From: a virus
Reading direction: 5' to 3' (one strand)
DNA: 64,000 nucleotides
IMG/VR virus record: IMGVR_UViG_3300044796_000222
Location: 1 to 64,000 of that record
Below the pieces are notes generated by a model. That model was not told where the DNA came from, ran no database searches, and saw only the letters and a program-made list of their open reading frames with translations. The translations under genes were made by a program, and so were the position numbers. Shown here one piece after another: positions 1 to 12,232 of the stretch. Each line of letters opens with the position of its first letter. Position 1 is the stretch's first letter.

Positions 1-377
1 TGGCTTCCAAGAAACCCATCCCCGTCATCCCAGGTCGCCAAGGCGACGTCATCTTGATCGAGATCGACGCACTCCCCATCGGTCTTGTGCCAGTCCCGGC
101 AGACGCACGCGGTATCGTCATCGCCGAAGGCGAAACGAGCGCTCACTTTCATCGCGTCTCCGCAAAGAAGAAGGGCGACGTCGTCCTCCATCAATTCAAA
201 GACGCGCGCCACACCGACCGGGTGCTCGAAGTGAAGTCGAAGGGCACGGTCTCCGTCATCGGCGGCGGATCGAAAGAAGCGCCTCGCCACGCGGCTTTCA
301 CCATCGCGCCGGGTTTCTACCGCGCGCGAATTCAGAAGAAGAACGACGCCGGACGGGTGCGAGCCGTCGTCGACTGA
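1..377 (+). CDS. Small conserved phage protein, partner of the DUF6745 gene (5' end cut by one base)
   Basis: The frame is open from base 3 and the window begins TGGCT, so the ATG very probably lies one base outside the window; an internal TTG at 54 is less likely. The product would be about 125 residues, with RQGDV at residues 13-17, an AEGET..HFH box at 42-51 and a PGFYRAR box near the C-terminus. I recognise this layout from small proteins of unknown function that are often encoded beside DUF6745 genes, and here the next gene is DUF6745, 51 bp downstream. The function is not known. Confidence 0.75.
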   Translation, partial: ASKKPIPVIPGRQGDVILIEIDALPIGLVPVPADARGIVIAEGETSAHFHRVSAKKKGDVVLHQFKDARHTDRVLEVKSKGTVSVIGGGSKEAPRHAAFTIAPGFYRARIQKKNDAGRVRAVVD

Positions 378-428
378 CCGCGCGCCCGATCGCATCAATC
401 ACCCAAACGAAAGAAGAAGAGCAACAAC

Positions 429-1742
429 ATGACCGCAAAGAAGTCACAGAAAAAGTCGCCAACGACCGCCCCCGCCGCCACCAAGGTCAAGCGCATCGAT
501 GCGCTCACCGACGAGCAGAGGGCGCAGTTCAAGCCGTGGGCCGACAAATGGACAGCCAACGCGATGTCCACCAAGCCCATGGATGACGAGGAGCGCGACA
601 TCTGCCGCACTGCCGTCAACGGCCTGTACGACGCAGCCAAGTTGCCACGGCCGAAGGCGATCGTCTTCGTCTCCTCGCCATTCGTGGCGCGGTTCGCGGC
701 TGGTTTCGCCGCAGCGATCTTGGAGGCGAGGAAGCGCGGGTGGAGGGACGCCGCCACGCGCGACGCCACGGACGCCGCCACGCGCGCCGCCACGCGCGCC
801 GCCACGCGCGCCGCCACGTACGCCGCCACGAGCGCCGCCACGTACGCCGCCACGAGCGACGCCACGTACGCCGCCACGGACGCCGCCACGCGCGACGCCA
901 CGCGCGACGCCACGAGCGACGCCACGTACGCCGCCACGGACGAAAAAAATCCGAAGAACATCAAATGGCATTCTGATATCGGCCGCGTCATGGCTCAGTT
1001 GGCGAAGGATCTCGGCGGCGAACACTCGGATCTTCTTTTGCGTTGCGCCGCCAACACGTACATGATGTGGTCCGGCGGCAACCAGTGGTCCGACTGGTCG
1101 TCTTGCATCTCCTTCTTCCGCCACGTCTGCAACCTGGACATCGATTACTCGAAGTGGGAGCATTTCGAGCGACTATCGCTACATTCCGGCCCACGATATA
1201 TGCACGCCGAGTTCTGCATCATCAGCGATCGGCCAGAGTTGCTGACGGTGGACGAGCAGAATCGCCCGCATGCCGACAATGGCCCGTTCTGCCGGTGGCG
1301 CGACGGTTCTTCGCTCTACTCGTTCCACGGCATGCGCCTGCCTGCGTGGGTCATGGACCAGCCAGAGTTGATCGACCTCAAGTCGATTCAGGCTGAGTCG
1401 AATGAAGAGATTCGTCGTGTGATGATCGAACGCTACGGCGTTGGCCGCTACGTGAATGACGCGCAGTTCAATTTGCTCGACGACGCGCTAGACCCGCTCG
1501 GACAACCGCGCCGACTCTACGGCAAAGGCGAAGATCGCGTCGTCGAAGTCACCAACAGCACCGTCGACGCCGACGGTACGCGCCGCGTCTACTTCGTGCC
1601 GTGCCTGCCGCAGCTCCGCCCCATGGATGTTGGTGGCGTTACTGGCGAGGTTGGCGAGCCGCAGGCAGACACCGCTCTAAACGCAGTTGCGTCGACTTTC
1701 GGCTTCCGTGGCGAAGAGTACGCGCCACAAGTCGAGACGTGA
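429..1742 (+). CDS. DUF6745-family protein with an internal 4-residue repeat array
   Basis: 437 residues. A Lys/Ala-rich N-terminus leads into a low-complexity block at about residues 107-170 made of (R/Y/S/D)(A/D)AT units. The core after it carries the family pattern: ISDRPELLTVDE, then a DNGPFCRWRDG segment, SFHGMRLPAWV, and MIERYGVGRY. DUF6745 has no established biochemical role to my knowledge. The start at 429 follows a purine-rich stretch (GAAAGAAGAAGAG). The stop overlaps the GTG of the next gene (GTGA), so the two are probably co-translated. The repeat block is the odd part; family members are recognised by the domain after it. Confidence 0.85.
   Translation: MTAKKSQKKSPTTAPAATKVKRIDALTDEQRAQFKPWADKWTANAMSTKPMDDEERDICRTAVNGLYDAAKLPRPKAIVFVSSPFVARFAAGFAAAILEARKRGWRDAATRDATDAATRAATRAATRAATYAATSAATYAATSDATYAATDAATRDATRDATSDATYAATDEKNPKNIKWHSDIGRVMAQLAKDLGGEHSDLLLRCAANTYMMWSGGNQWSDWSSCISFFRHVCNLDIDYSKWEHFERLSLHSGPRYMHAEFCIISDRPELLTVDEQNRPHADNGPFCRWRDGSSLYSFHGMRLPAWVMDQPELIDLKSIQAESNEEIRRVMIERYGVGRYVNDAQFNLLDDALDPLGQPRRLYGKGEDRVVEVTNSTVDADGTRRVYFVPCLPQLRPMDVGGVTGEVGEPQADTALNAVASTFGFRGEEYAPQVET
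759..938 (+). repeat. 15-unit tandem array of a 12-bp coding repeat
   Basis: Fifteen consecutive 12-bp units in frame with the DUF6745 gene. Each reads XXC-GMC-GCC-ACG. The GCC and ACG codons never change. The first codon is only CGC, TAC, AGC or GAC, and the second only GCC or GAC. A partial unit precedes the array at 747. Because there are no stop codons in several frames, the array produces long spurious open frames on both strands. Confidence 0.95.
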
Positions 1743-1936
1743 GCGCGCAACCATTCTTCGCCGTCGAATTCCGCCTCTCCACGCGCGCCGTCGGGCAGTG
1801 GCAGCGCGTCTGGTTCCACGGCGTCGGCGAGACGTTCCTGACGGCGGCGCTTGCGCAGTCGCAGATTGATGGACACTATGCGCCACAGGATCGGAAGTTC
1901 GCCCGCGTCGTGCCTGTTGAGCCGAGGAAGAGATGA
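1739..1936 (+). CDS. Hypothetical protein, 65 aa
   Basis: GTG start inside the stop of the DUF6745 gene (GTGA). The product is basic with aromatic clusters (FFAVEFRL, WQRVWFHG) suggesting beta strands, followed by a helix TAALAQSQI. It ends in the ATGA overlap with the next gene. I do not recognise the family. Coupling on both sides supports that it is translated. Confidence 0.7.
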   Translation: MSAQPFFAVEFRLSTRAVGQWQRVWFHGVGETFLTAALAQSQIDGHYAPQDRKFARVVPVEPRKR

Positions 1937-2226
1937 CACAACCGAACATCTGGCCGCCTGTCGAAGCGATGGTTGTGCTTAGGAAATCCGATCGCGAAGA
2001 ATTATTGGTCATCGAGCGTCCGCGCCATAGTAACGGCCAAATGTTCGTCGTTCAACGCGGAGGAACGTGGAACTACGAATGGAGCCGCGTATCGCTCGAC
2101 GAATTGATGCCCGACGATCGTAAGGAACGCATCGATCGCGGCGCTGCCCTGTTCGCTATCTGCGACGGCCTGACGCTGGAGCAAGTCGCTGCGGCGATCG
2201 ATGAATACAGGAGGCCGACGCCGTGA
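1933..2226 (+). CDS. Hypothetical protein, 97 aa
   Basis: ATG overlaps the previous stop (ATGA). The first half is strand-rich (AMVVLRKSD, MFVVQRGGTWNYEWSRVS), ending in SLDELMPDD. The C-terminal third is helical (RIDRGAALFAICDGLTLEQVAAAIDEYR). The mix resembles a small beta barrel plus a helical tail, but no family is recognised. It ends in a GTGA overlap. Confidence 0.7.
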   Translation: MTQPNIWPPVEAMVVLRKSDREELLVIERPRHSNGQMFVVQRGGTWNYEWSRVSLDELMPDDRKERIDRGAALFAICDGLTLEQVAAAIDEYRRPTP

Positions 2227-2456
2227 CGCTCATCAGTAAAGATTCGTGGCGCCTCGCCGAACTTGAGGCGATGAGCAACCGAGATGAGCCGGTGCCGGCT
2301 GCCGTACTACGTGAAGTGCTCGAAGTGTACATTGCGTTGCTGAATAGGCCGGACAGTTGCGGGACGTGCCACGGAACTGGCAGGATGTATTCGCCTGACG
2401 TCTCATCGTGCGCGCTCGTCGCATGCTCAGATTGCCACCAGGGGAACGGGCGATGA
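2223..2456 (+). CDS. Small zinc-finger protein, DnaJ-type CxxC pair
   Basis: 77 residues, GTG start overlapping the previous stop. A helical N-terminus (SWRLAELEAMSN) is followed by CGTCHGTGRM and CSDCHQGNG, the CxxCxGxG type of zinc-binding knuckles seen in DnaJ-like and many small phage proteins. It probably binds one zinc ion. Partner and role are unknown. Confidence 0.7.
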   Translation: MTLISKDSWRLAELEAMSNRDEPVPAAVLREVLEVYIALLNRPDSCGTCHGTGRMYSPDVSSCALVACSDCHQGNGR

Positions 2457-2710
2457 CCACCCGCCTGCGCCGCCGCGCGAAGGTGTATGAGCGCCTCCGC
2501 AACAATAGGAGAAGCCCGTTCCTGAAGACGTATGACGAACTGGTCGCTGGGGAGCGTCTTCCGTACTTCAGCCCAAGACCAGAGGATTACGAGCGCGCCG
2601 CCGCTGAAGAAGACGCCAGATTTGCGAAGGACGGGTACGGCATCGAGGCGCTCGCACCGGAGAACGAGTTTACACGCTTCATCATGCCGCGTACGGAATC
2701 AAAGTCATGA
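2453..2710 (+). CDS. Hypothetical basic protein, 85 aa
   Basis: The ATG at 2453 is chosen because it forms ATGA with the preceding stop; an upstream in-frame ATG at 2408 would bury it deep in the previous gene. The N-terminus is very basic (TTRLRRRAKVYERLRNNRR) and the remainder is acidic and helical (EDYERAAAEEDARF). This could be nucleic-acid binding, but no family is recognised. Confidence 0.65.
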   Translation: MTTRLRRRAKVYERLRNNRRSPFLKTYDELVAGERLPYFSPRPEDYERAAAEEDARFAKDGYGIEALAPENEFTRFIMPRTESKS

Positions 2711-3012
2711 CCCCTCTCCGCCGCCTGCGTAACCTCTACTCGCTGTGCCGCCTAGTGTACGGCCCGACGTTTCAGTTGACGTACAGCGTCAAAGGCGACG
2801 GCATCGGCGTTTTGGATTGGGAATCGAATGACTATCCAGACTGGCCGTCATCGCGCGGGTCGAAAGAACTTGTCGACTCTGCGAACATGCGGACTGTCGG
2901 CCCGCTCGTGCAGGTCTGCCTAAGCGCTCTTCAGCATGCCGAGACGCTCGACTGGTCCGCTCGTTGCACGGAGGTCGAAGCCGGCGTGGAGGCGTTACGA
3001 TGCGAGGACTGA
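2707..3012 (+). CDS. Hypothetical protein, 101 aa
   Basis: ATGA overlap with the preceding gene. The N-terminus is helical (PLRRLRNLYSLCRLVYG), followed by a strand segment (FQLTYSVKGDGIGVLDW) and a C-terminal helix with three cysteines. The last 13 bases overlap the next start. No family recognised. Confidence 0.65.
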   Translation: MTPLRRLRNLYSLCRLVYGPTFQLTYSVKGDGIGVLDWESNDYPDWPSSRGSKELVDSANMRTVGPLVQVCLSALQHAETLDWSARCTEVEAGVEALRCED

Positions 3013-3242
3013 CCGCCGATGAGCGCACGCTTCTGAGGGCCGCATGCTCTGACGGCGTTCGCCCATTGACCGCCGGCCAACACCACGTTGCCGAAGCACT
3101 CACGCGTGACGGTCGGCTCGCGAAACAGCAGCACTACATTTCAGATCGCTTGTTCGTGACGGCGTGGCTGCCGACAGCGCTAAGCGAACTAGCCCTCCGC
3201 GCCGACGCGGCGACTCTCCCGGCATCGAAGGCAGCGCTGTGA
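3000..3242 (+). CDS. Hypothetical protein, 80 aa, possible winged helix
   Basis: The ATG at 3000 overlaps the previous gene by 13 bases; upstream in-frame starts would overlap more. The order MRGLTADERTLLRAACSDG, then LTAGQHHVAEALTRDGRL, then a strand YISDRLFVTA looks like a short winged-helix fold. That assignment is an inference from pattern only. It ends in a GTGA overlap. Confidence 0.6.
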   Translation: MRGLTADERTLLRAACSDGVRPLTAGQHHVAEALTRDGRLAKQQHYISDRLFVTAWLPTALSELALRADAATLPASKAAL

Positions 3243-3550
3243 CCGCCTGCGTCTTCGTCGTTGCGTTGCAGGGGTCTGAGTTGCAGTTGCACGCGATGAA
3301 CGAGCCGGCGCGTCGTCTGCTTGGCGAGCATGGAGACGAGTTTCAGGTGGAGTTGTGGGACTTGCGCAACACGTTCCACGACCATGTCATATCGAACGAT
3401 GACGGGTTGAGCTTCAGGGAGCGTGAGCCGCTGCCATACGGCGTCTTGCCGCTGTCATTGGTGCGCCGGATGATCGAGGACGCGCTGTCTGAACGGTTCC
3501 CAGACCGTGAGATTTTGTGCCTGAACCGCCGGTCTTGCTGCCGGACCTGA
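3239..3550 (+). CDS. Hypothetical protein, 103 aa
   Basis: GTG start coupled to the previous stop. Contains FVVALQGSELQLHAMNEPARRLL, then an acidic strand region and LPLSLVRRMIEDALSERFPDREIL; the C-terminus is Cys/Arg-rich (CLNRRSCCRT). Last gene of the leftmost coupled run. No family recognised. Confidence 0.65.
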   Translation: MTACVFVVALQGSELQLHAMNEPARRLLGEHGDEFQVELWDLRNTFHDHVISNDDGLSFREREPLPYGVLPLSLVRRMIEDALSERFPDREILCLNRRSCCRT

Positions 3551-3588
3551 CGCTGCCGGTCGACGATCCGCTGCCGCGCTAGACTTCA

Positions 3589-3620
3589 CCCGCACCACCC
3601 GACGCGAATCGAGGTGCGGG
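3589..3620. terminator. GC-rich hairpin downstream of the leftmost gene run
   Basis: CCCGCACC (3589-3596) pairs with GGTGCGGG (3613-3620) across a 16-nt loop. It sits 39 bp after the last gene of the run and ahead of the promoter at 3755. No T tract follows, so it could be a weak or factor-dependent terminator, or an mRNA-end hairpin. The rest of 3551-3754 shows nothing I can support. Confidence 0.4.
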
Positions 3621-3754
3621 CAAGACGGGGACGCCTCCGATGTTCGGTGGCATCGTCGTTTTTGTGCCTGGATACCGCTTGCGTAGAGTGTGGCCGGATG
3701 CCTCATCTGTAGAACCGCCTCGGGGCGTAGTTGCGGAGCGTGGTCGAATCGCAC

Positions 3755-3783
3755 TTGACGGACGCCCACCGTGGCAGCATGGT
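3755..3783 (+). promoter_or_regulatory. Promoter for the HTH/replication operon
   Basis: TTGACG, 17-bp spacer, CATGGT, then 8 nt to the ATG at 3792. The distance from the first T of the -35 box to the ATG is 37, the same as at 14629 and 53875. The transcript would start at or next to the start codon. Confidence 0.55.
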
Positions 3784-3791
3784 GGGCAGCC

Positions 3792-3974
3792 ATGGATGAA
3801 CCGAAACGTATCCCCGCCGCGAAGTTGAGAGCCATCGCCGTCGCAGCAGACTGTGACGAGCGCACGATCTTCCGCGTTTTTCACGACCCGTCTTCTGGAG
3901 AGAAGAACGCGGCGCGGGCGCGGGCGCTCAAGGCGCTCATCGAAGCGGGAGTCTTGGTTGCTGAGGTGGCGTAG
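3792..3974 (+). CDS. Small helix-turn-helix regulator, LacI-type HTH
   Basis: 60 residues. AKLRAIAVAADCDERTIFRVF reads as a LacI-type helix-turn-helix, followed by a KNAARARALKALIEAGV helix as in the hinge-proximal part of that family; no ligand domain is present. ATG 3792 is preferred over an in-frame GTG at 3771 because of the promoter position and because the extra residues (MAAWWAA) look unnatural. It heads the replication operon and may control it. The TAG stop overlaps the next GTG. Confidence 0.65.
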   Translation: MDEPKRIPAAKLRAIAVAADCDERTIFRVFHDPSSGEKNAARARALKALIEAGVLVAEVA

Positions 3975-4255
3975 TGCCTCCGCGTAGGACGGGGCGCACG
4001 GCCAAGGTCGCGGCGCTCGATACGTTCGTCGTCGAGTTCGCCCACGACGATGGGCGTGGACTCGTCGAGTCTGTGACCGCGCCGTCTGCGGGAGATGCGG
4101 CAGCGATTGCGCTTCGCCGATGGGCAAAGAGCGGCGATGCGCCCACCGGCGCGATGGTGGACGTAATGTCAAGCCGTGGACGTATCGAGCGCTGGTACGC
4201 GCCGAACGCCTATCGCGTCGAATTTTACTCGTGCTGGCGTGCGGGAGGTGTGTGA
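3974..4255 (+). CDS. Hypothetical protein, 93 aa
   Basis: GTG start shares one base with the upstream TAG (TAGTG), and the stop shares one base with the next ATG (TGATG). Sequence contains FVVEFAHDDGRGLVESVTAPSAGDAAAIALRRWA and a C-terminal IERWYAPNAYRVEFYS, a strand-helix-strand pattern. No family recognised; the position just before the initiator gene suggests a role around replication, which is inference. Confidence 0.65.
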   Translation: MPPRRTGRTAKVAALDTFVVEFAHDDGRGLVESVTAPSAGDAAAIALRRWAKSGDAPTGAMVDVMSSRGRIERWYAPNAYRVEFYSCWRAGGV

Positions 4256-5349
4256 TGTCTGCGCTGTATTCGCGCGTAGATCGCGGCGTATGGAACAGTC
4301 TCGACTTTCGTGAACTTTCGCGCGAGGCGCGTGAGTTGTGGCTCTATCTGTTGACGTGTCCGTCTCAGAACGCGTTTCCTGGCCTATTCGCCGTTTCGCT
4401 CGGCACCATCGCAGAGGACATAGATCGAACACGTGATGAAGTATGTGCGGCGCTCGCCGAGATCGAGTCGCGCGGGATGGCGAAGTACGACTCAAAGGCT
4501 CGGGTAATGTGGCTACCGAAAGCCGTGCTTCGTCGCGACGACGAGGCGAAGAGCCCGAACAACGTCAAAGGATGGGGCAACGCTATCAAGTCGATCCCGT
4601 CGTGTGAACTGCGCTCGGAGGCGTTCGCGACCGTCCGCGCGTTCCTCGAACAGCTCGGAAACAGCCAGTCAACGGAAGCCCTCGGAGACCCCTTGGGCTA
4701 CCCCTCCAGGAGGGCTCCAGGAGGGGTTGGTGGAGGGGTTGGTGGAGGGGTCGTCGAAGGGTCGGTGGAGGGGTCGGCGTCGGCTCAGGAAACAACCACA
4801 AAACAGCAAATTCATACCCCTCCAGGAGGGCTCCAGGAGGGGTTGGTGGAGGGGTTGGTGGAGGGGTCGTCGAAGGGTCGGGAACTAGGAAAGGATAAGG
4901 AAAGGAAAGGAGAGCAACAACAACAGCAACGCGCAGGGGCGGTGGTCGATGACTTGGTGACGGCCCTCGCGAAGAGTGACGAGATGCGTCATCACCCGAA
5001 CGTCGACCTAGCCGGGCTTGCGGCGATGATCCGAAAGCAGAAGCAGCCTCCCGTTCCCGAAATGGACGCCCACTGGATTGCAGCCCTCCCGATAGTATTC
5101 GACGCACTCGAACGCGCTCGTGTGAACGGCACGCTGAGCAGCGTTGCCGGGCTCGTTGGGTCGACGCTGCGATCGATCAATTCGCCAGCGATGATTCGTC
5201 AGGCACTTGCCGATCGCGACAAGCCACGCGAGTCCCGCAAGGCCAACGGTCGATCCGTAGAAATTATCAATGGGCGAGAATTGCCTGACATCAACGATCC
5301 GACCGTTCCGTACTGGCGTCCGTTCCCGAAAATGGAGACCGAGGAATGA
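4255..5349 (+). CDS. Replication initiator-like protein with an embedded candidate origin
   Basis: 364 residues from the TGATG-coupled ATG. Residues 1-130 (SRVDRGVWNSLDFRELSREARELWLYLLT..., GTIAEDIDRTRDEVCAALAEIE) match the winged-helix N-terminus of phage replication initiators. Residues about 148-210 are a low-complexity Gly/Val/Glu linker encoded by two 67-bp repeats read in different frames. The C-terminal part (VDDLVTALAKSDEMRHHPNVDLAGLAAMIRK...) is helical and may bind the helicase. The gene precedes primase and DnaB with ATGA coupling. The layout parallels lambda O, whose origin iterons lie inside the gene. Confidence 0.7.
   Translation: MSALYSRVDRGVWNSLDFRELSREARELWLYLLTCPSQNAFPGLFAVSLGTIAEDIDRTRDEVCAALAEIESRGMAKYDSKARVMWLPKAVLRRDDEAKSPNNVKGWGNAIKSIPSCELRSEAFATVRAFLEQLGNSQSTEALGDPLGYPSRRAPGGVGGGVGGGVVEGSVEGSASAQETTTKQQIHTPPGGLQEGLVEGLVEGSSKGRELGKDKERKGEQQQQQRAGAVVDDLVTALAKSDEMRHHPNVDLAGLAAMIRKQKQPPVPEMDAHWIAALPIVFDALERARVNGTLSSVAGLVGSTLRSINSPAMIRQALADRDKPRESRKANGRSVEIINGRELPDINDPTVPYWRPFPKMETEE
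4699..4765 (+). repeat. 67-bp G-rich direct repeat, copy 1
   Basis: Identical over 67 bp to 4815-4881. It contains outer inverted arms CCCCTCC/GGAGGGG and repeated GGAGGGGTTGGT units. Copy 1 continues into further GGAGGGGTCGG units, so the G-run periodicity extends to about 4778. It is read here as PSRRAPGGVGGG. Confidence 0.95.
4815..4881 (+). repeat. 67-bp G-rich direct repeat, copy 2
   Basis: Same 67 bp as copy 1 with start points 116 bp apart. As 116 is not a multiple of three, this copy is translated in another frame (PPGGLQEGLVEG). It is followed by an A/purine-rich tract to about 4930. Confidence 0.95.
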
Positions 5350-6410
5350 GCGACGACGCACGACGCATCAACGCCGCGCTCGCAGATATCGGCGTCGCGA
5401 AGTTCCTGTCAGCGCTGGGCATCAAAGGTCGAGGCAATGGCACGCGTGCCCGATTCGCGTGCGCAATACACGGCGGCGACGGCCTAAGCGCCTCGATGAC
5501 GATTCGCGACGGCGCTCTGGTCTGGCATTGTTTCAGCGGGTGTAGTTCAGGCGGAGACGCGCTGTCGCTGATCGCCTCGATGCGCGGCTACGACCTTCGC
5601 GAAAACTTTCGCGACGTGCTCGCCGAGGCCGCGTCGATCGCTGGCGTGGGTCTTGGCGAATCGTCGTTCACGCCGCGCCAACGCATCGCTCCGCCGCCAG
5701 AAGACCCGGCCGTCATCGCAGCGCGCATCGAGGCAGCGCAGGGCGTGAAGCGCATTCTCGCGGCGTTGCTCGAACTCGCGCCGCTGGAGGGCGAAGGGCT
5801 CCGGTACCTGACCGAAGACCGAGGGCTGACCAGGGCGACGTGCGAAAAGGCGCGCGTAGGCTACCTGGGAGACGCTCAGATGGCTCTTCGCGTCCTTCTT
5901 GCGTCCTTCCCGTATGAGGCACTGGAAGCCGCTGGAATCGTCTACGGAGGGCGCTGGCTGGCCCACGAGCGTCATCCACTGCTTTTCCCGATACTTCACG
6001 GAGGTGTGCCGGTCTACCTGCAAGGTCGCGCGCTCGGACCTGTCGCGAAGAAGCAAGATCGGTGGCGCTCGTGCCGTGGAAGCGTGCCGTCGCTTTACAA
6101 TCCAGACGCGCTTGAGCGTACGGATGTGCCCGCTTTGTTGCTAGAAGGGCCAATAGATACCTTGTCTGCAATGCAATGGGTCCCAGACGTTGCGCCCGTT
6201 GGAGTATTCGGCGCTGGTGGCTTCAAGGCAGAGTGGGCTGCGCCGTTGCGGGGTAGAGACGTTTGGGTCGCTCTCGATCCAGATGAGGCTGGCGAAAAAG
6301 GAGCCGTGGAGACGATGCGTGAATTGGTGAAGGCCGGCGCGTGGCCTCGACGTCTTGCGATGCCGCCCGGAATGGACATGAACGATTGGATGCTCGCGGA
6401 GGCCGCGTGA
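5346..6410 (+). CDS. DNA primase, CHC2 zinc finger plus TOPRIM domain
   Basis: 354 residues, ATGA-coupled to the initiator. The N-terminal zinc site is C39, H42 with C62 and C66 (FACAIHGGDG ... WHCFSGC), followed by GGDALSLI as in DnaG-type CHC2 fingers. The TOPRIM signature is LLLEGPIDTLSAM (Glu near 267) and VALDPDEAG (near 311). It should synthesise RNA primers for the phage fork with the DnaB helicase downstream. Length fits short phage primases lacking a DnaG C-terminal helicase-binding domain. Confidence 0.9.
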   Translation: MSDDARRINAALADIGVAKFLSALGIKGRGNGTRARFACAIHGGDGLSASMTIRDGALVWHCFSGCSSGGDALSLIASMRGYDLRENFRDVLAEAASIAGVGLGESSFTPRQRIAPPPEDPAVIAARIEAAQGVKRILAALLELAPLEGEGLRYLTEDRGLTRATCEKARVGYLGDAQMALRVLLASFPYEALEAAGIVYGGRWLAHERHPLLFPILHGGVPVYLQGRALGPVAKKQDRWRSCRGSVPSLYNPDALERTDVPALLLEGPIDTLSAMQWVPDVAPVGVFGAGGFKAEWAAPLRGRDVWVALDPDEAGEKGAVETMRELVKAGAWPRRLAMPPGMDMNDWMLAEAA

Positions 6411-7933
6411 CTCACCCGATCGCGCTCGCGGCCATTCACGCGGAGCCGGTGTCAGCGCTTGACCGCGCGCAGCTCGTGGCTGCGTCCGACGACGCGGCGG
6501 AGCGCGCGGTGCTCTCGGCCGTCATCTTTCACGGCGCGCTCGACGAGGCGTTGACCGTCGTTGAGATGCGGATGTTCTATTCGCTCGCACACAAATCGAT
6601 TTTTCGTATCGCGTGCGACTTGACCAAGGGCGGCCAGCCTCTCGACGAGCAGACGATCGGGTCTGTCTTGCAACGCGAAGGCACGATCGAAAAGTTCGGC
6701 GGCTTCGAATATCTTACGGGGCTGCGCACCGCGACGCCGGACGCGACGCATGTCCGCGCTCACGCGAAGACAGTCGCGATGCTTTACCAGCAACGCCGCG
6801 TGGTCGAGACGGCGATGTCGATCGTCACCGATGGGCTCGCAAGCAAGTCGGACCCATCCTCGTACGTCGACCGAGCGCTAAAAAAGATCACGGAGTCTGT
6901 CGAGCGCCAACGCGGCACGCACCTTGTCCAAATGTACGACACGGTTCGTGCGAGGTCCGAGGCGTGGCGCAAGATGCGCGAGACCGGCTATGTCGGTGGG
7001 CTCAGGACGGGCATTGGTGCGTTCGATCAACATACGGACGGCCTGCCGCGACCCGGCGTGACGATGCTCGGAGCGGAGACGGGAGCAGGCAAGTCGATTT
7101 TGGGATGGAATATCGGAAACAATGTCGCCGACACGCCAGACATACGCGGCCGAGCGCAGGGCGTTGTTTACGTCAGCGGCGAGATGGATGACGAGGAACT
7201 TCACGACCGGGCAGTCTGCGCACGCGCTGGCGTATCACTCCGCAAGTTGAGGCGCGTGATGATGGGGGCATCGGCGCATCCGAACGAGCAGCCGATCAGC
7301 GCTGACGATGCACGCACCATCGAAGACAACGTGCTTGCCGCGATGCAATGGCTAGAAACGCGTCCGATCTTCACGTTCGCGCGGGTCGCAGACATTCACG
7401 ATATTCGCGGCGCCGTGCGCGACGCAAACCGCACACTTATCGACAACGCCGCAGATCCGCGCGATCCGCCGGAGGTGGCACTCGTCGTCGTAGACTTCAT
7501 GCAGATGATGCAAGTTTCCGAAGCCGACAGATTCGATCTGGCGCTCACGCAACTTGGCTACGCGCTCCGCGATCTTGCTGCCGAGAAAAAACTAGCGGTG
7601 CTCGCACTCGCTCAGAAAAACGATCGGTCGGAAAAGCGCGACGGCGGCGCGTTCAGCAACCGAGACTTCAAGCATTCGAGCGGCCTCGCCGAACCGGCCG
7701 CGCTCGCCGGGTTCTTGGACCGCCCCGTGCTTGGAATGGGCAAGCGATCCGAAGACGACCGGATGAAGTGGCGGAACTATTCCGAACTGCACTTCACGAA
7801 GGGGCGTCAAGTGGGGCTAGGGCGCGTCCAACTCTACTTCGACGGCCCTAGATTCCACATTCGCGATCCGAAAGCGGGCGAGTTTGCCGGCCTGTGGGAT
7901 GATCCGCCAACTGGCGGGAAGGCGAGACGTTGA
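6407..7933 (+). CDS. dnaB: Replicative DNA helicase, DnaB family
   Basis: 508 residues from a GTG coupled to the primase stop (GTGA). Residues 25-140 match the DnaB N-terminal domain (DDAAERAVLSAVIFHG..., ADLIS-like ATHVRAHAKTVAMLYQQRRV). The RecA-type core has Walker A AETGAGKS near residue 223 and Walker B ALVVVDFMQMM near 360; HTDGLPRPGVTMLGAETG is the usual lead-in. A hexameric 5'-3' fork helicase is expected. Replication genes end here. Confidence 0.93.
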   Translation: MTHPIALAAIHAEPVSALDRAQLVAASDDAAERAVLSAVIFHGALDEALTVVEMRMFYSLAHKSIFRIACDLTKGGQPLDEQTIGSVLQREGTIEKFGGFEYLTGLRTATPDATHVRAHAKTVAMLYQQRRVVETAMSIVTDGLASKSDPSSYVDRALKKITESVERQRGTHLVQMYDTVRARSEAWRKMRETGYVGGLRTGIGAFDQHTDGLPRPGVTMLGAETGAGKSILGWNIGNNVADTPDIRGRAQGVVYVSGEMDDEELHDRAVCARAGVSLRKLRRVMMGASAHPNEQPISADDARTIEDNVLAAMQWLETRPIFTFARVADIHDIRGAVRDANRTLIDNAADPRDPPEVALVVVDFMQMMQVSEADRFDLALTQLGYALRDLAAEKKLAVLALAQKNDRSEKRDGGAFSNRDFKHSSGLAEPAALAGFLDRPVLGMGKRSEDDRMKWRNYSELHFTKGRQVGLGRVQLYFDGPRFHIRDPKAGEFAGLWDDPPTGGKARR

Positions 7934-7935
7934 CC

Positions 7936-8064
7936 ATGACCCAGCCCGAACGCATCGACACGATCCTGGCCCGCGTGATGGCGGAGCACCGGAAGCGGCT
8001 GGCGGCGCTTCCCCCTCCGCCATCGCCCGCTGCGCCGAGTGCAAACGTCTCCGACGCCTCTTGA
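7936..8064 (+). CDS. Small hypothetical protein, 42 aa
   Basis: ATG two bases after the helicase stop. Product: helical N-terminus (PERIDTILARVMAEHRKRLAAL) and a Pro/Ala tail. Its TGA lies inside the TTGACA box of the next promoter. Too short for family recognition. Confidence 0.55.
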   Translation: MTQPERIDTILARVMAEHRKRLAALPPPPSPAAPSANVSDAS

Positions 8065-8088
8065 CATCGCAAGGATGATGGTGACGTT
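8061..8088 (+). promoter_or_regulatory. Leaderless-type promoter
   Basis: TTGACA, 16-bp spacer, GACGTT, 6 nt, ATG at 8095. The distance from -35 box to start codon is 34 nt, as at 10909, 12290, 13796, 17634 and 54393. Confidence 0.65.
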
Positions 8089-8094
8089 CACGCC

Positions 8095-8322
8095 ATGACC
8101 GACCCCACCAAGATCGATGGCCTGCTGAAGATGTACGAAGGCGCGCTGAAGGCCCAGGCCGTCACGAAACTCGCGGAGACCATTCTGCTCGCCGACAAGG
8201 GCGCAGGCTCGCACATCGAGAAGGTTAGGAGCGCCTTCGATACCGCCATCGCCTTCTACGCCGAACGTGACGCGCGCTTTCCGGCGCCGACGCTTGACGA
8301 CGTGCGACGCGAGGTAAAGTGA
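8095..8322 (+). CDS. Hypothetical helical protein, 75 aa
   Basis: Start fixed by the promoter 34 nt upstream; there is no Shine-Dalgarno sequence. Mostly amphipathic helix (KIDGLLKMYEGALKAQAVTKLAETILL..., IEKVRSAFDTAIAFYAERD). No family recognised. The stop overlaps the next start. Confidence 0.7.
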   Translation: MTDPTKIDGLLKMYEGALKAQAVTKLAETILLADKGAGSHIEKVRSAFDTAIAFYAERDARFPAPTLDDVRREVK

Positions 8323-8624
8323 TGGTCGAGCCCCTCCCTGCCACCGAAGCGGTCGCCAACGCTGACGAGGTGAAGCGCATCGGGCAAGCCGTGTGCGACT
8401 TTCTCGAACGAGAATTTCCGCATGCGCCCGACACACAGCAGGGCACGCGCAACTGCGCCGTCGCTCTGGTGCGGATGGCCGCATTCATGTCGGTCTGCAC
8501 CGGCATCGACTTGGTCAAGTTGGCGGAGTCGGAACAGCGGCTCGTTCGCGAAACAACGACGGTGAACGATAAGAACGAATTGGTCGCCAAGCATCGGGCG
8601 CCGCCGGATGGGATGGCGTCGTGA
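8322..8624 (+). CDS. Hypothetical helical protein, 100 aa
   Basis: ATG 8322 in TGATG with the previous stop; GTG at 8319 is the alternative. Contains EVKRIGQAVCDFLEREFP, CAVALVRMAAFMSVCTGIDLVKLAE and a polar tail. No family recognised; coupled on both sides. Confidence 0.7.
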   Translation: MVEPLPATEAVANADEVKRIGQAVCDFLEREFPHAPDTQQGTRNCAVALVRMAAFMSVCTGIDLVKLAESEQRLVRETTTVNDKNELVAKHRAPPDGMAS

Positions 8625-8872
8625 TGCCAGAACCGAAATACGAATGCCCCGACCACCCGCCGGAAGCGCAGTGCTACCAGGAGGGGACGCTCTGCGACAA
8701 CTGGCGCCGCGTTGATGCGGTCGAGGTTCCGATTCCAGTCAGCCTTGGACTGCGGCTATCGCTGTACCGAGAAATCGACAAGCGTGTCGCCAAATACGTC
8801 AAGCAGGGGTATGGTCGCGCCGACGCATGGAACGTGGCGATCGGCGAAGTGCTTGTGATGGGAGAGGGATGA
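8624..8872 (+). CDS. Hypothetical Cys-containing protein, 82 aa
   Basis: ATG 8624 overlaps the previous TGA; GTG 8621 is possible. C-x-DHPPEAQC and an LCDNW segment near the N-terminus could hold a metal; the C-terminal half is helical (RLSLYREIDKRVAKYVKQGYG). Unrecognised. Confidence 0.65.
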   Translation: MPEPKYECPDHPPEAQCYQEGTLCDNWRRVDAVEVPIPVSLGLRLSLYREIDKRVAKYVKQGYGRADAWNVAIGEVLVMGEG

Positions 8873-9018
8873 TGACCGAAAAGTGCTGCGACCGCGACTT
8901 AGACTCGGACGGGAACTGCGATAGGCACCCGTCGATTCGTGGAGACGGATCGGACATCGCAAAATACGACCAGAAGGACATCGACGCACTCGAAGCGTAT
9001 CGGGCGATTCCGTTCTGA
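8872..9018 (+). CDS. Small Cys-rich protein, 48 aa
   Basis: ATG 8872 (8869 possible; both overlap the previous stop). KCCDRDLDSDGNC followed by an acidic helix DQKDIDALEAYRAIPF. A small metal-binding protein is possible. The last gene before the promoter at 9022. Confidence 0.6.
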   Translation: MTEKCCDRDLDSDGNCDRHPSIRGDGSDIAKYDQKDIDALEAYRAIPF

Positions 9019-9021
9019 GGC

Positions 9022-9049
9022 TTGACGCCGCTGGAATCGTTCTTACTTT
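9022..9049 (+). promoter_or_regulatory. Promoter with a short leader
   Basis: TTGACG, 16-bp spacer, TACTTT. The ATG is at 9082, so a leader of about 25 nt is expected, and it contains the GAGGAG ribosome site. This differs from the leaderless sites by having a leader and a Shine-Dalgarno sequence. Confidence 0.6.
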
Positions 9050-9081
9050 CCAGCACCGTTCGCACAACTAGAGGAGATCGC

Positions 9082-9477
9082 ATGGACCTGTCAACGCAGA
9101 TGAAGTCGACCGTTTCGAAGAAACTCCGCGTTCGGATCGCGACGCTGAAGAAGCAGAAGGCGGCGGCGGACAAGTTGTTCGCTGCCGAGTACAAGCGCTG
9201 GCAACTGGATATGGCGGCATGGTTGAAGACGGAGGGCGCCAAGCGGATCATGCTCATGTCGCCGCATGGTCCGAAGACGTACGGATCGCCGGTGCACGAC
9301 AGTCTGTTCTGGTCGGACGCGCCAAAGAGGCCGTCAAAGTCTGACATCGAGAAGAAAATTCAAGAGTGCCAGCGCATGCTCCGCCAACTCGGCATCACCG
9401 GGCAGGCGACGGTGAAGATCGGGCCGAGCGAAGTCGACAAATTCTTCGGCGTGCCCGATGCTGACGACGATGAGTGA
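9082..9477 (+). CDS. Hypothetical coiled-coil protein, 131 aa
   Basis: ATG 9082 preceded by AGAGGAGATCGC, a good ribosome site. Residues 5-50 form a basic coiled coil (VSKKLRVRIATLKKQKAAADKLFAAEYKRWQ); residues 88-106 form a second helix (SDIEKKIQECQRMLRQLG). Overlaps the next gene by 8 bases. Unrecognised, possibly an oligomeric DNA-associated protein. Confidence 0.75.
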   Translation: MDLSTQMKSTVSKKLRVRIATLKKQKAAADKLFAAEYKRWQLDMAAWLKTEGAKRIMLMSPHGPKTYGSPVHDSLFWSDAPKRPSKSDIEKKIQECQRMLRQLGITGQATVKIGPSEVDKFFGVPDADDDE

Positions 9478-10621
9478 CCGCCCCATCGTCTGCCTGGTGA
9501 TGAACGCCAAGGTCGATCCGCCGACCATCGAGCGCGCGCTGAACAGCGTCAACGGCATCGTCGACCACTACGTCATCTCGACGACGCCCGGCGACACGTT
9601 GGAGCAGTATATCCAGCAGTACCTCCACTGCATGCGCAAGTACGGCATGACGTTCACGTTCGAGCGCGAGAACGGTGGGCAGATGAGGACGCGGTTGTTC
9701 GAGGAAGCAGCGATCTACGGCAAGCGGCATGGCGTCACGCACTTCCTGAACCTGGACGCTGACGACGAGATCGCGGTCGATCCTGGGTTCTCGTGGGACT
9801 TCGTTCACCACTTTCCGGTCTGGTCGATCCATGAGCACGCCGACGGGTTCACGTGGGACTTTCCGCGCATCTTTTCGACGGCGCACGAATGGCGATGGAA
9901 GTATCCGTTGCACGAGATCCCGGTGAGCGACACGTTCGACCAGAAGGACGTCGCGCGGGCGCCGAAACTTCGGTATGTGCGCCACCATGACGACACGCGC
10001 GGTCCTGGCTATTATCAGGTCCACGCCGACATAATCGAGCGATGGATGGCGGAGAGCGAAGAGAACGCGTCAGACCCGCGCATGACGTTCTACATGGCGC
10101 AGTCGCTCGAAGCGGCCGGGAAGAGCGACGATGCTGCGATGTGGTACGATTGCCGTGCCAAGATGACGACGGGTCTCAAAGACGAGGCGTGGCTGGCGTC
10201 CTACCGCGCTGCCAAGTTGCGAGCGATGAAGGCCAACGTCGAGCCGACGCCTGAGAAAGTGAAGCCGGTCATCGACGAGTTGGTGAGTGTTGGCAACGCG
10301 GATGGCCGCCGGTGCGAGCCGTTCGTCATCGCAGCGCAGCTCGCGCGGTTCGCGGGGCGGCACGACGTTGCGCTTGGGCTCGCCGAGCACGCGCTTCGGA
10401 TGCCGTTTCCGACGGCGCTACCGCACCTGGACATGCTCGCATGGGAATACGGGCGGGACGGCGAGTATCTGAGCGCGTGCTTTCACACCGGACAATTCCC
10501 GCAAGCACTCACGACGGTTGAGCGGATGCTGGCGAGCGGCAAGGTGCCTGAGAGCGAAGTGGAGAGGCTGACAATGGCTGCGGCGGCGCTGAAAGACATG
10601 ATCGCGGGGAAAGCGCCATGA
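9470..10621 (+). CDS. Glycosyltransferase, GT-A type, with helical C-terminal repeats
   Basis: 383 residues. PIVCLVMNAKVDPPTIERALNSV with a DHYVISTTPGD strand and a FLNLDADDE metal-binding DxD-type motif (about residue 105) match GT2-like transferases. The C-terminal half (MTFYMAQSLEAAGKSDDAAMWYDCR..., IAAQLARFAGRHDVALGLAEHAL) looks like TPR-type helical repeats. It probably transfers a sugar to a protein, DNA or cell-surface acceptor; the substrate cannot be read from sequence. ATG 9470 overlaps the upstream stop; 9458 is an alternative. Confidence 0.8.
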   Translation: MSDRPIVCLVMNAKVDPPTIERALNSVNGIVDHYVISTTPGDTLEQYIQQYLHCMRKYGMTFTFERENGGQMRTRLFEEAAIYGKRHGVTHFLNLDADDEIAVDPGFSWDFVHHFPVWSIHEHADGFTWDFPRIFSTAHEWRWKYPLHEIPVSDTFDQKDVARAPKLRYVRHHDDTRGPGYYQVHADIIERWMAESEENASDPRMTFYMAQSLEAAGKSDDAAMWYDCRAKMTTGLKDEAWLASYRAAKLRAMKANVEPTPEKVKPVIDELVSVGNADGRRCEPFVIAAQLARFAGRHDVALGLAEHALRMPFPTALPHLDMLAWEYGRDGEYLSACFHTGQFPQALTTVERMLASGKVPESEVERLTMAAAALKDMIAGKAP

Positions 10622-10689
10622 GCATGCAGACGACGCTTCAGAGCGCGACCGAAGGTTTCATGCCTAGCGGAGCCACCAAGGCGCGATGA
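10618..10689 (+). CDS. Very small coupled ORF, 23 aa
   Basis: ATGA overlap with the glycosyltransferase stop and ATGA overlap with the next ORF. The peptide (MSMQTTLQSATEGF...) has no recognisable feature. The double coupling is the only support for translation. Confidence 0.35.
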   Translation: MSMQTTLQSATEGFMPSGATKAR

Positions 10690-10784
10690 ATCTCATGGCG
10701 GAGTGGACCCGAGACGGCCTGGAGTGGAAGGCCGAAATCGCGAAGTTGGCGACGTTGGCGAACGTCCACGAAGACGCAACTTGA
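10686..10784 (+). CDS. Very small coupled ORF, 32 aa
   Basis: ATG overlaps the stop of the 23-aa ORF. Helical peptide (EWTRDGLEWKAEIAKLATLANV). Its TGA forms part of the TTGACG box at 10781. Unrecognised. Confidence 0.4.
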   Translation: MNLMAEWTRDGLEWKAEIAKLATLANVHEDAT

Positions 10785-10809
10785 CGGACGCCTCGCCGGT
10801 GCTTACGGT
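10781..10809 (+). promoter_or_regulatory. Promoter reading into a structured non-coding stretch
   Basis: TTGACG, 17-bp spacer, TACGGT. No start codon lies at the usual distance. The next 95 bp carry three hairpins, so a small RNA or a leader for the RHH gene is more likely than a leaderless gene. Confidence 0.5.
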
Positions 10810-10811
10810 TG

Positions 10812-10896
10812 GTTACGCCTAAAAAGCGTAGAGTTCGAGCCTCGTCTTCTTCGGCTCACGACTCCGACTCGCCTCTCGACTCCACGGGAGGCGAAG
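10812..10896 (+). ncRNA. Candidate small structured RNA
   Basis: Three simple hairpins follow one another: TACGC/GCGTA with a 7-nt loop (10814-10830), GAGCC/GGCTC (10837-10857) and TCGCCTC/GAGGCGA (10869-10894), the last followed by AGTTGTTTC. The region has its own promoter upstream and another promoter after it, and no plausible start codon. The first hairpin mimics an anticodon arm, but the remaining arms do not fit a tRNA. Identity unknown. Confidence 0.35.
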
Positions 10897-10908
10897 TTGT
10901 TTCAGGGG

Positions 10909-10936
10909 TTGACATGCCGTATGTGAGGGTTAGGTT
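10909..10936 (+). promoter_or_regulatory. Leaderless-type promoter for the RHH gene
   Basis: TTGACA, 16-bp spacer, TAGGTT, 6 nt, ATG at 10943; 34 nt from box to start. Confidence 0.7.
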
Positions 10937-10942
10937 GCGTTC

Positions 10943-11101
10943 ATGGGACAGCAGAAGGGCCGAATCTCCACGAACGTGTACCTGAATCCAGAGGAGCTGG
11001 ATCGCTTGCGAGCGCTCAGCGAACGCACGCGCGTGCCGATGTCTGCGTACATTCGCGAGGGCATCGACATCGTATTGAAGAAATACGGTGAGAAAAAGTG
11101 A
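10943..11101 (+). CDS. Ribbon-helix-helix (CopG/Arc-type) DNA-binding protein
   Basis: 52 residues. A strand RISTNVYL is followed by helix NPEELDRLRALSERT, the turn VPMS and helix AYIREGIDIVLKKYG, the full RHH order for a dimeric repressor. There is no toxin-like partner of known type; the next gene is coupled by GTGA. It may regulate its own promoter, whose start lies only 6 nt upstream of the ATG. A typical RHH length. Confidence 0.85.
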   Translation: MGQQKGRISTNVYLNPEELDRLRALSERTRVPMSAYIREGIDIVLKKYGEKK

Positions 11102-11322
11102 AACTCGTCCAGCAAGACGAACTACTCCACTTCAACACGTGGTCGCTGCTGGCGGAACTTGGCAAGAAGGCAGTCGTCGTCACCAAGCATCCAAAGCGTC
11201 ACGCTGCGGCGCTCGTTTGGCGCGGGTGGGCGAAAGAAGTGAGCGACGGGGAGTTTTCAATTACTGCGACGGGGCGTGAGGCGTTGGCGCTCGGGCGCGC
11301 GAAAGGGCTTTTTATCTCATGA
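11098..11322 (+). CDS. Hypothetical winged-helix-like protein, 74 aa
   Basis: GTG overlaps the RHH stop. LLHFNTWSLLAELGKKAVVVTKHPKRHAAALVWRGWAKEVSDGEFSITATGREALAL reads as helices followed by a beta wing and a final helix, the layout of small winged-helix proteins. With the RHH gene it may form a regulatory pair; this is inference. Confidence 0.6.
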   Translation: MKLVQQDELLHFNTWSLLAELGKKAVVVTKHPKRHAAALVWRGWAKEVSDGEFSITATGREALALGRAKGLFIS

Positions 11323-11783
11323 AGACCATCGGACTCGGCGACATCGCTCGTGACAAAATGACTGGCCTAGAAGGCGAAGTGGTCGCGCACTCCACGTACA
11401 TCCACAACTGCGACCGACTCACGATTCAGCCGAAGGGCCTGAAGGACGGTCGGCCGTACGACACGCGCTCGTTCGACATCCTCGGGATGGAGTTCGTGAA
11501 GAAGGGGACGGCGAAGGTCTACGCACCAGTCGTGCAGCCGGTCGCGGCGTTCGGCGACAGCGTGAAGGACAGACTGACGGGCGCCGCTGGCGTTCTCGTG
11601 AGCCGGACGATCTGGTCGAACGGATGCTCGCGCGTCAGCGCTCAGCCGACGAAGTTGAAGGACGGCCTGCCTGCCGACTTGATTCACCTCGACGAGCAAG
11701 ACGTCATCCTCGTAAAGCGCGCCGCCGTCGAATCGAAGCCGGCGAAGACTGGTGGGCCGCGCGCGGAGCCGAGCCGTCGGTAG
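11319..11783 (+). CDS. Protein with two tandem beta-barrel-like repeats, 154 aa
   Basis: ATGA-coupled. Residues 5-60 (GLGDIARDKMTGLEGEVVAH..., IQPKGLKDGRPYD) and 74-130 (FGDSVKDRLTGAAGVLVSR..., AQPTKLKDGLPAD) are clear copies of one domain of about 55 residues that looks like a small SH3/KOW barrel. The basic tail suggests nucleic-acid contact. No named family is recognised. Confidence 0.75.
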   Translation: MKTIGLGDIARDKMTGLEGEVVAHSTYIHNCDRLTIQPKGLKDGRPYDTRSFDILGMEFVKKGTAKVYAPVVQPVAAFGDSVKDRLTGAAGVLVSRTIWSNGCSRVSAQPTKLKDGLPADLIHLDEQDVILVKRAAVESKPAKTGGPRAEPSRR

Positions 11784-11785
11784 TC

Positions 11786-12232
11786 ATGCGCCTCATCCCG
11801 AACTTCATCGGCGCTGGCGAGATCGCGGCCCTCTCTCGCTTCGTCGATCGCCATGACTTCGAGCCTGGTCGACAGGGGACGGGTTACGAAAAGTTGGCGC
11901 TCAAATACGACGAGTGGCCGCTGGCGCGGGAGCGATGCCTTGCCGCGCTGGGCGTATCCTACGACACGGCGCACGACTGCTACATGCTTCGATACCAGGT
12001 CGGCGCATCGATTCCGGCTCACGTCGACGATGCGCCGCTTGCGAGCGAGCATCATCGCATCAACGTCTGCGTCGTCGAGCCGGTCGGTGGCGGCGTCCTC
12101 TATGTCGACGGCAGCGCGGTCCCTCTGCGCGCCGGTGACGCCTACGTCTTCCGTCCAGACGTCGAGGGACACGAAGTTGCGATGGTCACGAGGGGCGTTC
12201 GACTCATGTTCACCGTCGGGATTCTGCGATGA
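11786..12232 (+). CDS. 2-oxoglutarate/Fe(II)-dependent oxygenase, small prolyl-hydroxylase-like
   Basis: 148 residues from ATG 11786. The double-stranded beta-helix core shows the iron ligands H79 and D81 (AHVDDAP) and H129 (EGHEV), with R139 (RGVRL) to hold 2-oxoglutarate; YQVGASIPAHVD is typical of P4H-like members. It should hydroxylate a protein or nucleic-acid substrate, which is unknown. Coupled by ATGA to the next small ORF. Confidence 0.85.
   Translation: MRLIPNFIGAGEIAALSRFVDRHDFEPGRQGTGYEKLALKYDEWPLARERCLAALGVSYDTAHDCYMLRYQVGASIPAHVDDAPLASEHHRINVCVVEPVGGGVLYVDGSAVPLRAGDAYVFRPDVEGHEVAMVTRGVRLMFTVGILR

Follow-up and report, generated by a model that had tools for sequence, protein, structure and literature searches.

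In lambdoid phages, the iterons bound by the initiator O lie midway along gene O and are followed by the weak tract, an AT-rich region that is unwound (PMC7466680). The annotated iterons of lambda (NC_001416) are spaced by 20, 24 and 23 bp and lie in frames 0, 2, 2 and 1 of gene O. In the plasmid pSK41, the Rep boxes are located centrally in rep and are bound by the N-terminal domain of the protein, and the linker encoded by these boxes is not needed in trans (PMC5703833). Phage SPP1 carries its origin oriL within gene 38 (PMC6316719). Most phages known only from metagenomes have unmapped origins. Here we describe a concrete candidate in an unclassified 93-kb phage, of which a window of 64,000 nucleotides was analysed together with the 93,013-bp virus record that is its source. 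We infer that two 67-bp blocks within the phage's own initiator gene act, with high probability, as a lambda-type iteron origin whose units are spaced by about one helical turn.

The features of the locus are collected in Table 1. The gene order is initiator, primase and DnaB, with short overlaps. The initiator matches a PHROG family of unknown function (25711, E 1.2e-13), DnaD-like helicase loaders (E 1.6e-8) and replication initiation proteins (E 6e-6), and these matches cover mainly the N-terminal 125 residues. With tblastn, it matches genes of other phages that are annotated as 'DNA replication protein O' and 'primosomal protein'; lambda O was absent from these tblastn matches, and searches of Pfam and PDB gave no RepA_N sequence match. 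An AlphaFold2 model built from 16 sequences shows an N-terminal domain that is confident to about residue 145, with most pLDDT values at 80-98 from residue 10 to residue 140, then a predicted disordered stretch in which residues 158-160 and 163-220 fall under 50, and a moderately predicted helical C-terminal part. The iterons form codons 149-209 and thereby coincide with the predicted disordered linker. The best Foldseek matches of the model are Rep-type initiator domains (5kbj, 4pt7, 4pql and 4pta), all weak (E 0.03-0.16, best 0.028) and intermixed with common winged-helix regulators; the top structural match, 5kbj, is a Rep initiator-DNA complex.

Table 1. Features of the initiator locus, in positions of the window.
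Feature	Position	Strand	Details
Replication initiator gene, 364 aa, DnaD/O-like, putative origin inside	4255..5349	+	PHROG and tblastn; stop overlaps primase start
N-terminal domain, codons 1-145, putatively iteron-binding, winged-helix-like fold	4255..4689	+	AlphaFold2, Foldseek
Predicted disordered linker, residues 146-214, encoded by iterons	4690..4896	+	AlphaFold2 pLDDT
Iteron block 1 (67-bp copy 1)	4699..4765	+	Phase 0; 12-nt units at 4717, 4729, 4741, 4752, plus 4764 overrunning the block
A-rich spacer, block 1 to block 2	4784..4814	+	61% AT, against a genome of 62% GC
Iteron block 2 (exact 67-bp copy 2)	4815..4881	+	Phase 2; units at 4833, 4845, 4857, 4868
Purine-rich tract, then CAA repeats, putative unwinding element	4879..4935	+	Purine content, duplex weakness
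TOPRIM/zinc-finger primase gene	5346..6410	+	ATGA overlap with initiator gene; PHROG DNA primase E 2.5e-28, Toprim_2
DnaB-like replicative helicase gene	6407..7933	+	PHROG DnaB-like E 1e-51; Pfam DnaB_C, DnaB

The two copies agree at every one of their 67 bp; their starts are 116 bp apart, with 49 bp intervening. As 116 leaves a remainder of two on division by three, one open gene (start 4255) translates them in two frames, copy 1 as YPSRRAPGGVGGGVGGGVVEGSV and copy 2 as HTPPGGLQEGLVEGLVEGSSKGR. An earlier sequence-only reading had reported identical repeats giving different peptides at this distance, and its coordinates, the two frames and its translations were all confirmed; the flanks that it described are real too, an A-rich gap at 4784-4814 and a tract of 89% purine at 4879-4914. 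The pair is the longest exact direct repeat of the whole record, and the remaining repeats of at least 25 nt are in-frame or simple tandem arrays only. A 20-nt piece of the array, searched with up to three mismatches, has five matches in the record, all on the + strand and all at this locus, and the reversed pattern used as a control has none; this search revealed no second array in the 93-kb record.

Both blocks are arrays built from G-rich units of 11/12 bp that are close to GGTGGAGGGGTY. The spacings are 12, 12, 11 and 12 bp in and just past copy 1, and 12, 12 and 11 bp in copy 2. Because an 11-bp step stands among 12-bp steps, the frame shifts even within a single 67-bp copy. Overall there are about nine units, mostly direct and G-rich, at a pitch of about one helical turn. 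An overlapping open frame (4604-4888, +) translates copy 1 as TPPGGLQEGLVEGLVEGSSKGR, the main-frame peptide of copy 2; it is probably a product of the shifted duplication and no gene.

Synonymous codon shuffles that kept the protein (n = 1000) gave a maximum repeat score of 36, against an observed score of 82, so that multiple near-identical, regularly spaced units (12, 12 and 11) in differing frames were matched by 0/1000 shuffles. Applied to lambda gene O as a positive control, the test reaches its peak at codons 107-156, with a score of 33 against a shuffle maximum of 20, and this segment holds the proven iterons. Short exact repeats counted without regard to frame are a simple computational sign, and the score recovered the lambda ori region. 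The repeats are constrained as DNA and not as peptide, and DNA-level constraint across the initiator family is shown computationally.

The family-level evidence comes from distant relatives, gathered by profile search and from annotated phages. Two of the search alignments contained a constructed bait sequence for the family, which served solely to pick search patterns, and every relative locus was confirmed by tblastn against real sequence. Locus searches of IMG/VR, using either the initiator or DnaB as query, found no close relatives, and a search with the array-core DNA pattern gave no match. With no close relative found, recent duplication and selection are inseparable for the 67-bp pair. 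The earlier proposal that DNA identity reflects selection or recent duplication acting on DNA thus holds in part: repeats are kept as DNA in distant relatives, but the two processes cannot be told apart for the pair itself.

The most repetitive 150 nt start at or after codon 100, past the N-terminal domain, in 22 of the 26 initiators (window included), and they beat all 60 synonymous shuffles in 15 of the 26. At an offset of 12, exact repeats 9 nt or longer occur 17 times in 13 of 24 linker genes, compared with four times in control ORFs totalling 119,700 nt. At an offset of 11, out of frame, there are 10 such repeats in 8 of 24 linkers and a single one in the same length of control ORFs; some of the sampled relatives are kin to one another, and these counts are not all independent. 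Being out of frame, the offset-11 repeats cannot arise from a peptide repeat. They are common to the window and seven other initiators, and mark the same place in the initiator genes of distant phages. Six actinobacterial initiators, picked by their N-terminal domain only, formed a hold-out set: four have offset-12 repeats in the linker, L136 among these four has an offset-11 repeat as well, and the N-terminal halves of the six have neither kind. A 21-bp repeat of L097, a Propionibacterium MAG, is translated in two frames, as GNPSDLV and as GEPFRFGS, and L128 likewise has one repeat that is translated in two frames. The check proposed at the outset was to align related initiator genes and ask if the repeat persists as DNA where the peptide diverges; its outcome in distant relatives was positive. 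The linker array is scant or absent in the enteric relatives L012, L013, L067, L016 and L030, and in L100 and L103.

Further pattern searches were also made. A core motif, RARGGSTY, occurs at 6.5/kb in linkers against 0.36/kb elsewhere, but it was chosen after the data were seen and is not used as proof. Relaxed patterns retrieved L098, L125-L127, L129 and L130, with 2-3 units in mostly unrelated coding sequence (a glycine linker, a tape measure gene and others), and we regard these as chance background. No instance of the unit pattern occurred in 398 genomes from the phylum of G001, and blastn searches of phage and plasmid sequences with the arrays returned nothing useful.

The array could be a neutral low-complexity linker, produced by slippage expansion of G-rich sequence and a recent 67-bp duplication, and without function as DNA; we consider this unlikely. 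A recent duplication would explain the zero divergence between the copies, the linker is predicted to be disordered, and slippage arrays exist elsewhere in the genome, one of 12 bp (746-942) and one of hexamers near 92.5 kb. The former, a tandem array in the DUF6745 protein gene (429-1742), encodes A-A-T-x tetrapeptides. Yet in this other coding array every exact repeat offset (at least 25 nt) is divisible by three, in contrast to the out-of-frame iterons. Neutral expansion also accounts poorly for an 11-bp out-of-frame offset here and in seven further initiators when about 120 kb of control genes hold one case, and for an array placed just past the N-terminal domain alike in most relatives. 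The proven iterons of lambda are likewise out of frame.

Selection could instead act on the amino acids, with a tetrapeptide (G-L/F-V/A-E)n as the selected unit and copy 1 as its decayed or shifted duplicate. The frame of copy 2 does match relatives, EGLVEGLVEG resembling their EGFAEGFAKAF, and the 12-bp frame is often shared. Copy 1 loses that peptide with its DNA unchanged, the repeat score is destroyed by shuffles that leave the protein intact, and at the equivalent place other relatives encode quite different peptides (VTVTV, SPSPSP, PSDLV and MPHAMPH), which together make selection on the peptide very improbable.

The sequence that follows the blocks also suits an iteron origin of the lambda type. 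The 36 nt at 4879-4914 reach a purine content found in 0.6% of control ORFs. The weakest duplex between 3.6 and 7.0 kb is the 50-nt segment at 4880 (4880-4930), directly 3' of copy 2 and among the weakest 0.16% of the record. The likeness to lambda O that had been suggested for the flanks is borne out, since an easily melted tract lies immediately 3' of the repeats within the initiator gene. Cumulative GC skew over the record, another of the proposed checks, has its minimum at 1.6-1.8 kb and gives no independent support for an origin at the repeats; skew is uninformative here because the record is linear and gene orientation is mixed.

A purine-rich, hexamer-like tract follows the iterons in most of the initiator genes and is translated into dipeptide repeats, QE in L107, L108, L112, L114, L118, L119 and L123, and KE in L121, L122 and L124. 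In L104, GCAGGA is translated one base shifted as A-G-A-V-A-E, and CAGGAG-like DNA is translated in different frames in different phages.

The G-quadruplex potential attributed to the regular GGGG runs is only partly upheld. At 2.08, G4Hunter at both copies is the highest of the 93-kb record. The locus has long-loop versions but no canonical G3-N1-7 motif, the loops being about 8 nt. G4Hunter is ordinary in the linkers of L121, L105, L106, L124, L108, L115 and lambda, and high in those of L097, L011 and L118. Since most relatives show no raised potential, we regard it as probably a by-product and not a conserved feature. The region with the second-highest G4Hunter value of the record, on the opposite strand, is a long CCCGTN hexamer array outside the window, at about 92,440-92,680 of the record (L010:12440-12680), which is open in most frames (PVPVPV / GTGTGT). 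That the G-rich strand folds or pairs with RNA as a G-quadruplex or R-loop control element, regulating expression or priming, would suit the top score and the strong G skew of the coding strand, but the missing canonical motif, the unremarkable values in most relatives' linkers and an Rfam search of positions 1-12000 that matched no family leave it little credence.

For the iteron origin, a course of initiation can be proposed. On computational grounds, the initiator comprises a putatively DNA-binding N-terminal domain, a predicted disordered linker and a C-terminal part, and the linker codons contain the 11/12-bp units, in two blocks and at about one helical turn. Many different peptides are tolerated in the linker, which leaves the units free of any one frame. 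The N-terminal domain may bind the units cooperatively along one face of the DNA; binding would strain and open the weak purine-rich tract (4880-4935); and the C-terminal part would then bring in the phage DnaB helicase and the primase encoded downstream, whereupon replication would begin. Binding, opening and loading are envisaged here by analogy with lambda, SPP1 and pSK41.

There is about an even chance that the arrangement is family-wide, such that phages of Pseudomonadota, Bacillota and Actinomycetota with initiators of this kind hold an 11/12-bp iteron array and a purine/hexamer tract in their linker codons as the origin. If so, linker peptides such as QEQEQE, EKEKEK, GGVGGG and VTVTV would be merely translated origin DNA, and out-of-frame 11-bp repeats within a gene would provide a simple general signature for phage origins. 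Confirmation would make origins callable from sequence, and would explain common low-complexity linkers as DNA signals and not as protein features.

Set against the known systems, the locus is most like lambda in its layout. In both, repeated, here putative, initiator sites lie midway along the initiator gene (codons 117-145 in lambda) and are mutually out of frame, with an AT- or purine-rich tract immediately 3'; by sequence inspection only, the lambda half-sites GAGGG/CCCTC also resemble the GAGGGG units found here. The two-frame translation that had been called unusual is not so, because the iterons of lambda occupy all three frames of gene O; translation in several frames is what is expected of iteron origins embedded in initiator genes. 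Of the earlier notion of an unusual G-iteron origin in the initiator gene, the embedded origin, its activity taken as probable, is supported, whereas the rarity and the quadruplex role were put too strongly. Lambda differs in having four 18-bp palindromic iterons at 20-24 bp, compared with about nine mostly direct 11/12-bp units here. It also differs downstream, where the present phage has primase and DnaB genes and no P-type loader gene, and homology to lambda O is not claimed.

RepA_N initiators such as pSK41 Rep have an N-terminal winged-HTH domain, a linker encoded by the origin and a C-terminal domain, a layout that the modelled protein would share, and the best fold matches of the model, weak as they are (E 0.03), are of this type; pSK41 is a plasmid and not a phage, and the likeness does not extend to a RepA_N sequence match. 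SPP1 gp38 is a phage initiator with direct repeats and an AT-rich unwinding element, an origin in its own gene and a DnaB-family helicase (PMC6316719); by published description SPP1 differs in its loader gp39 and in a second origin, oriR, which has no counterpart in a second array here. The enteric O- or primosomal-protein-like initiators (L011, pPE4; L012, Chris1) have a homologous N-terminal domain with 33-37% identity, and L011 has 12-bp repeats after it, but several members have weaker repeats or none. A profile built from the relatives matches DnaT over the C-terminal part, a match that applies to the profile and not to the window protein. In the L128 prophage, a GGGTTGGCGGA-N unit is repeated at 12, 12 and 11 bp in two sub-blocks of a replication gene and translated in two frames (SANP and PPTP). 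This GGGTTGGCGGA array (L128:1190-1350) is likely the replication origin of that prophage, and it differs in being antisense, on the opposite strand, and in occupying the 3' end of a RepA-like helicase gene instead of an initiator gene. What sets the present locus apart from the known design is its pitch of 11/12 bp, its G-rich, mostly direct units and its two identical blocks.
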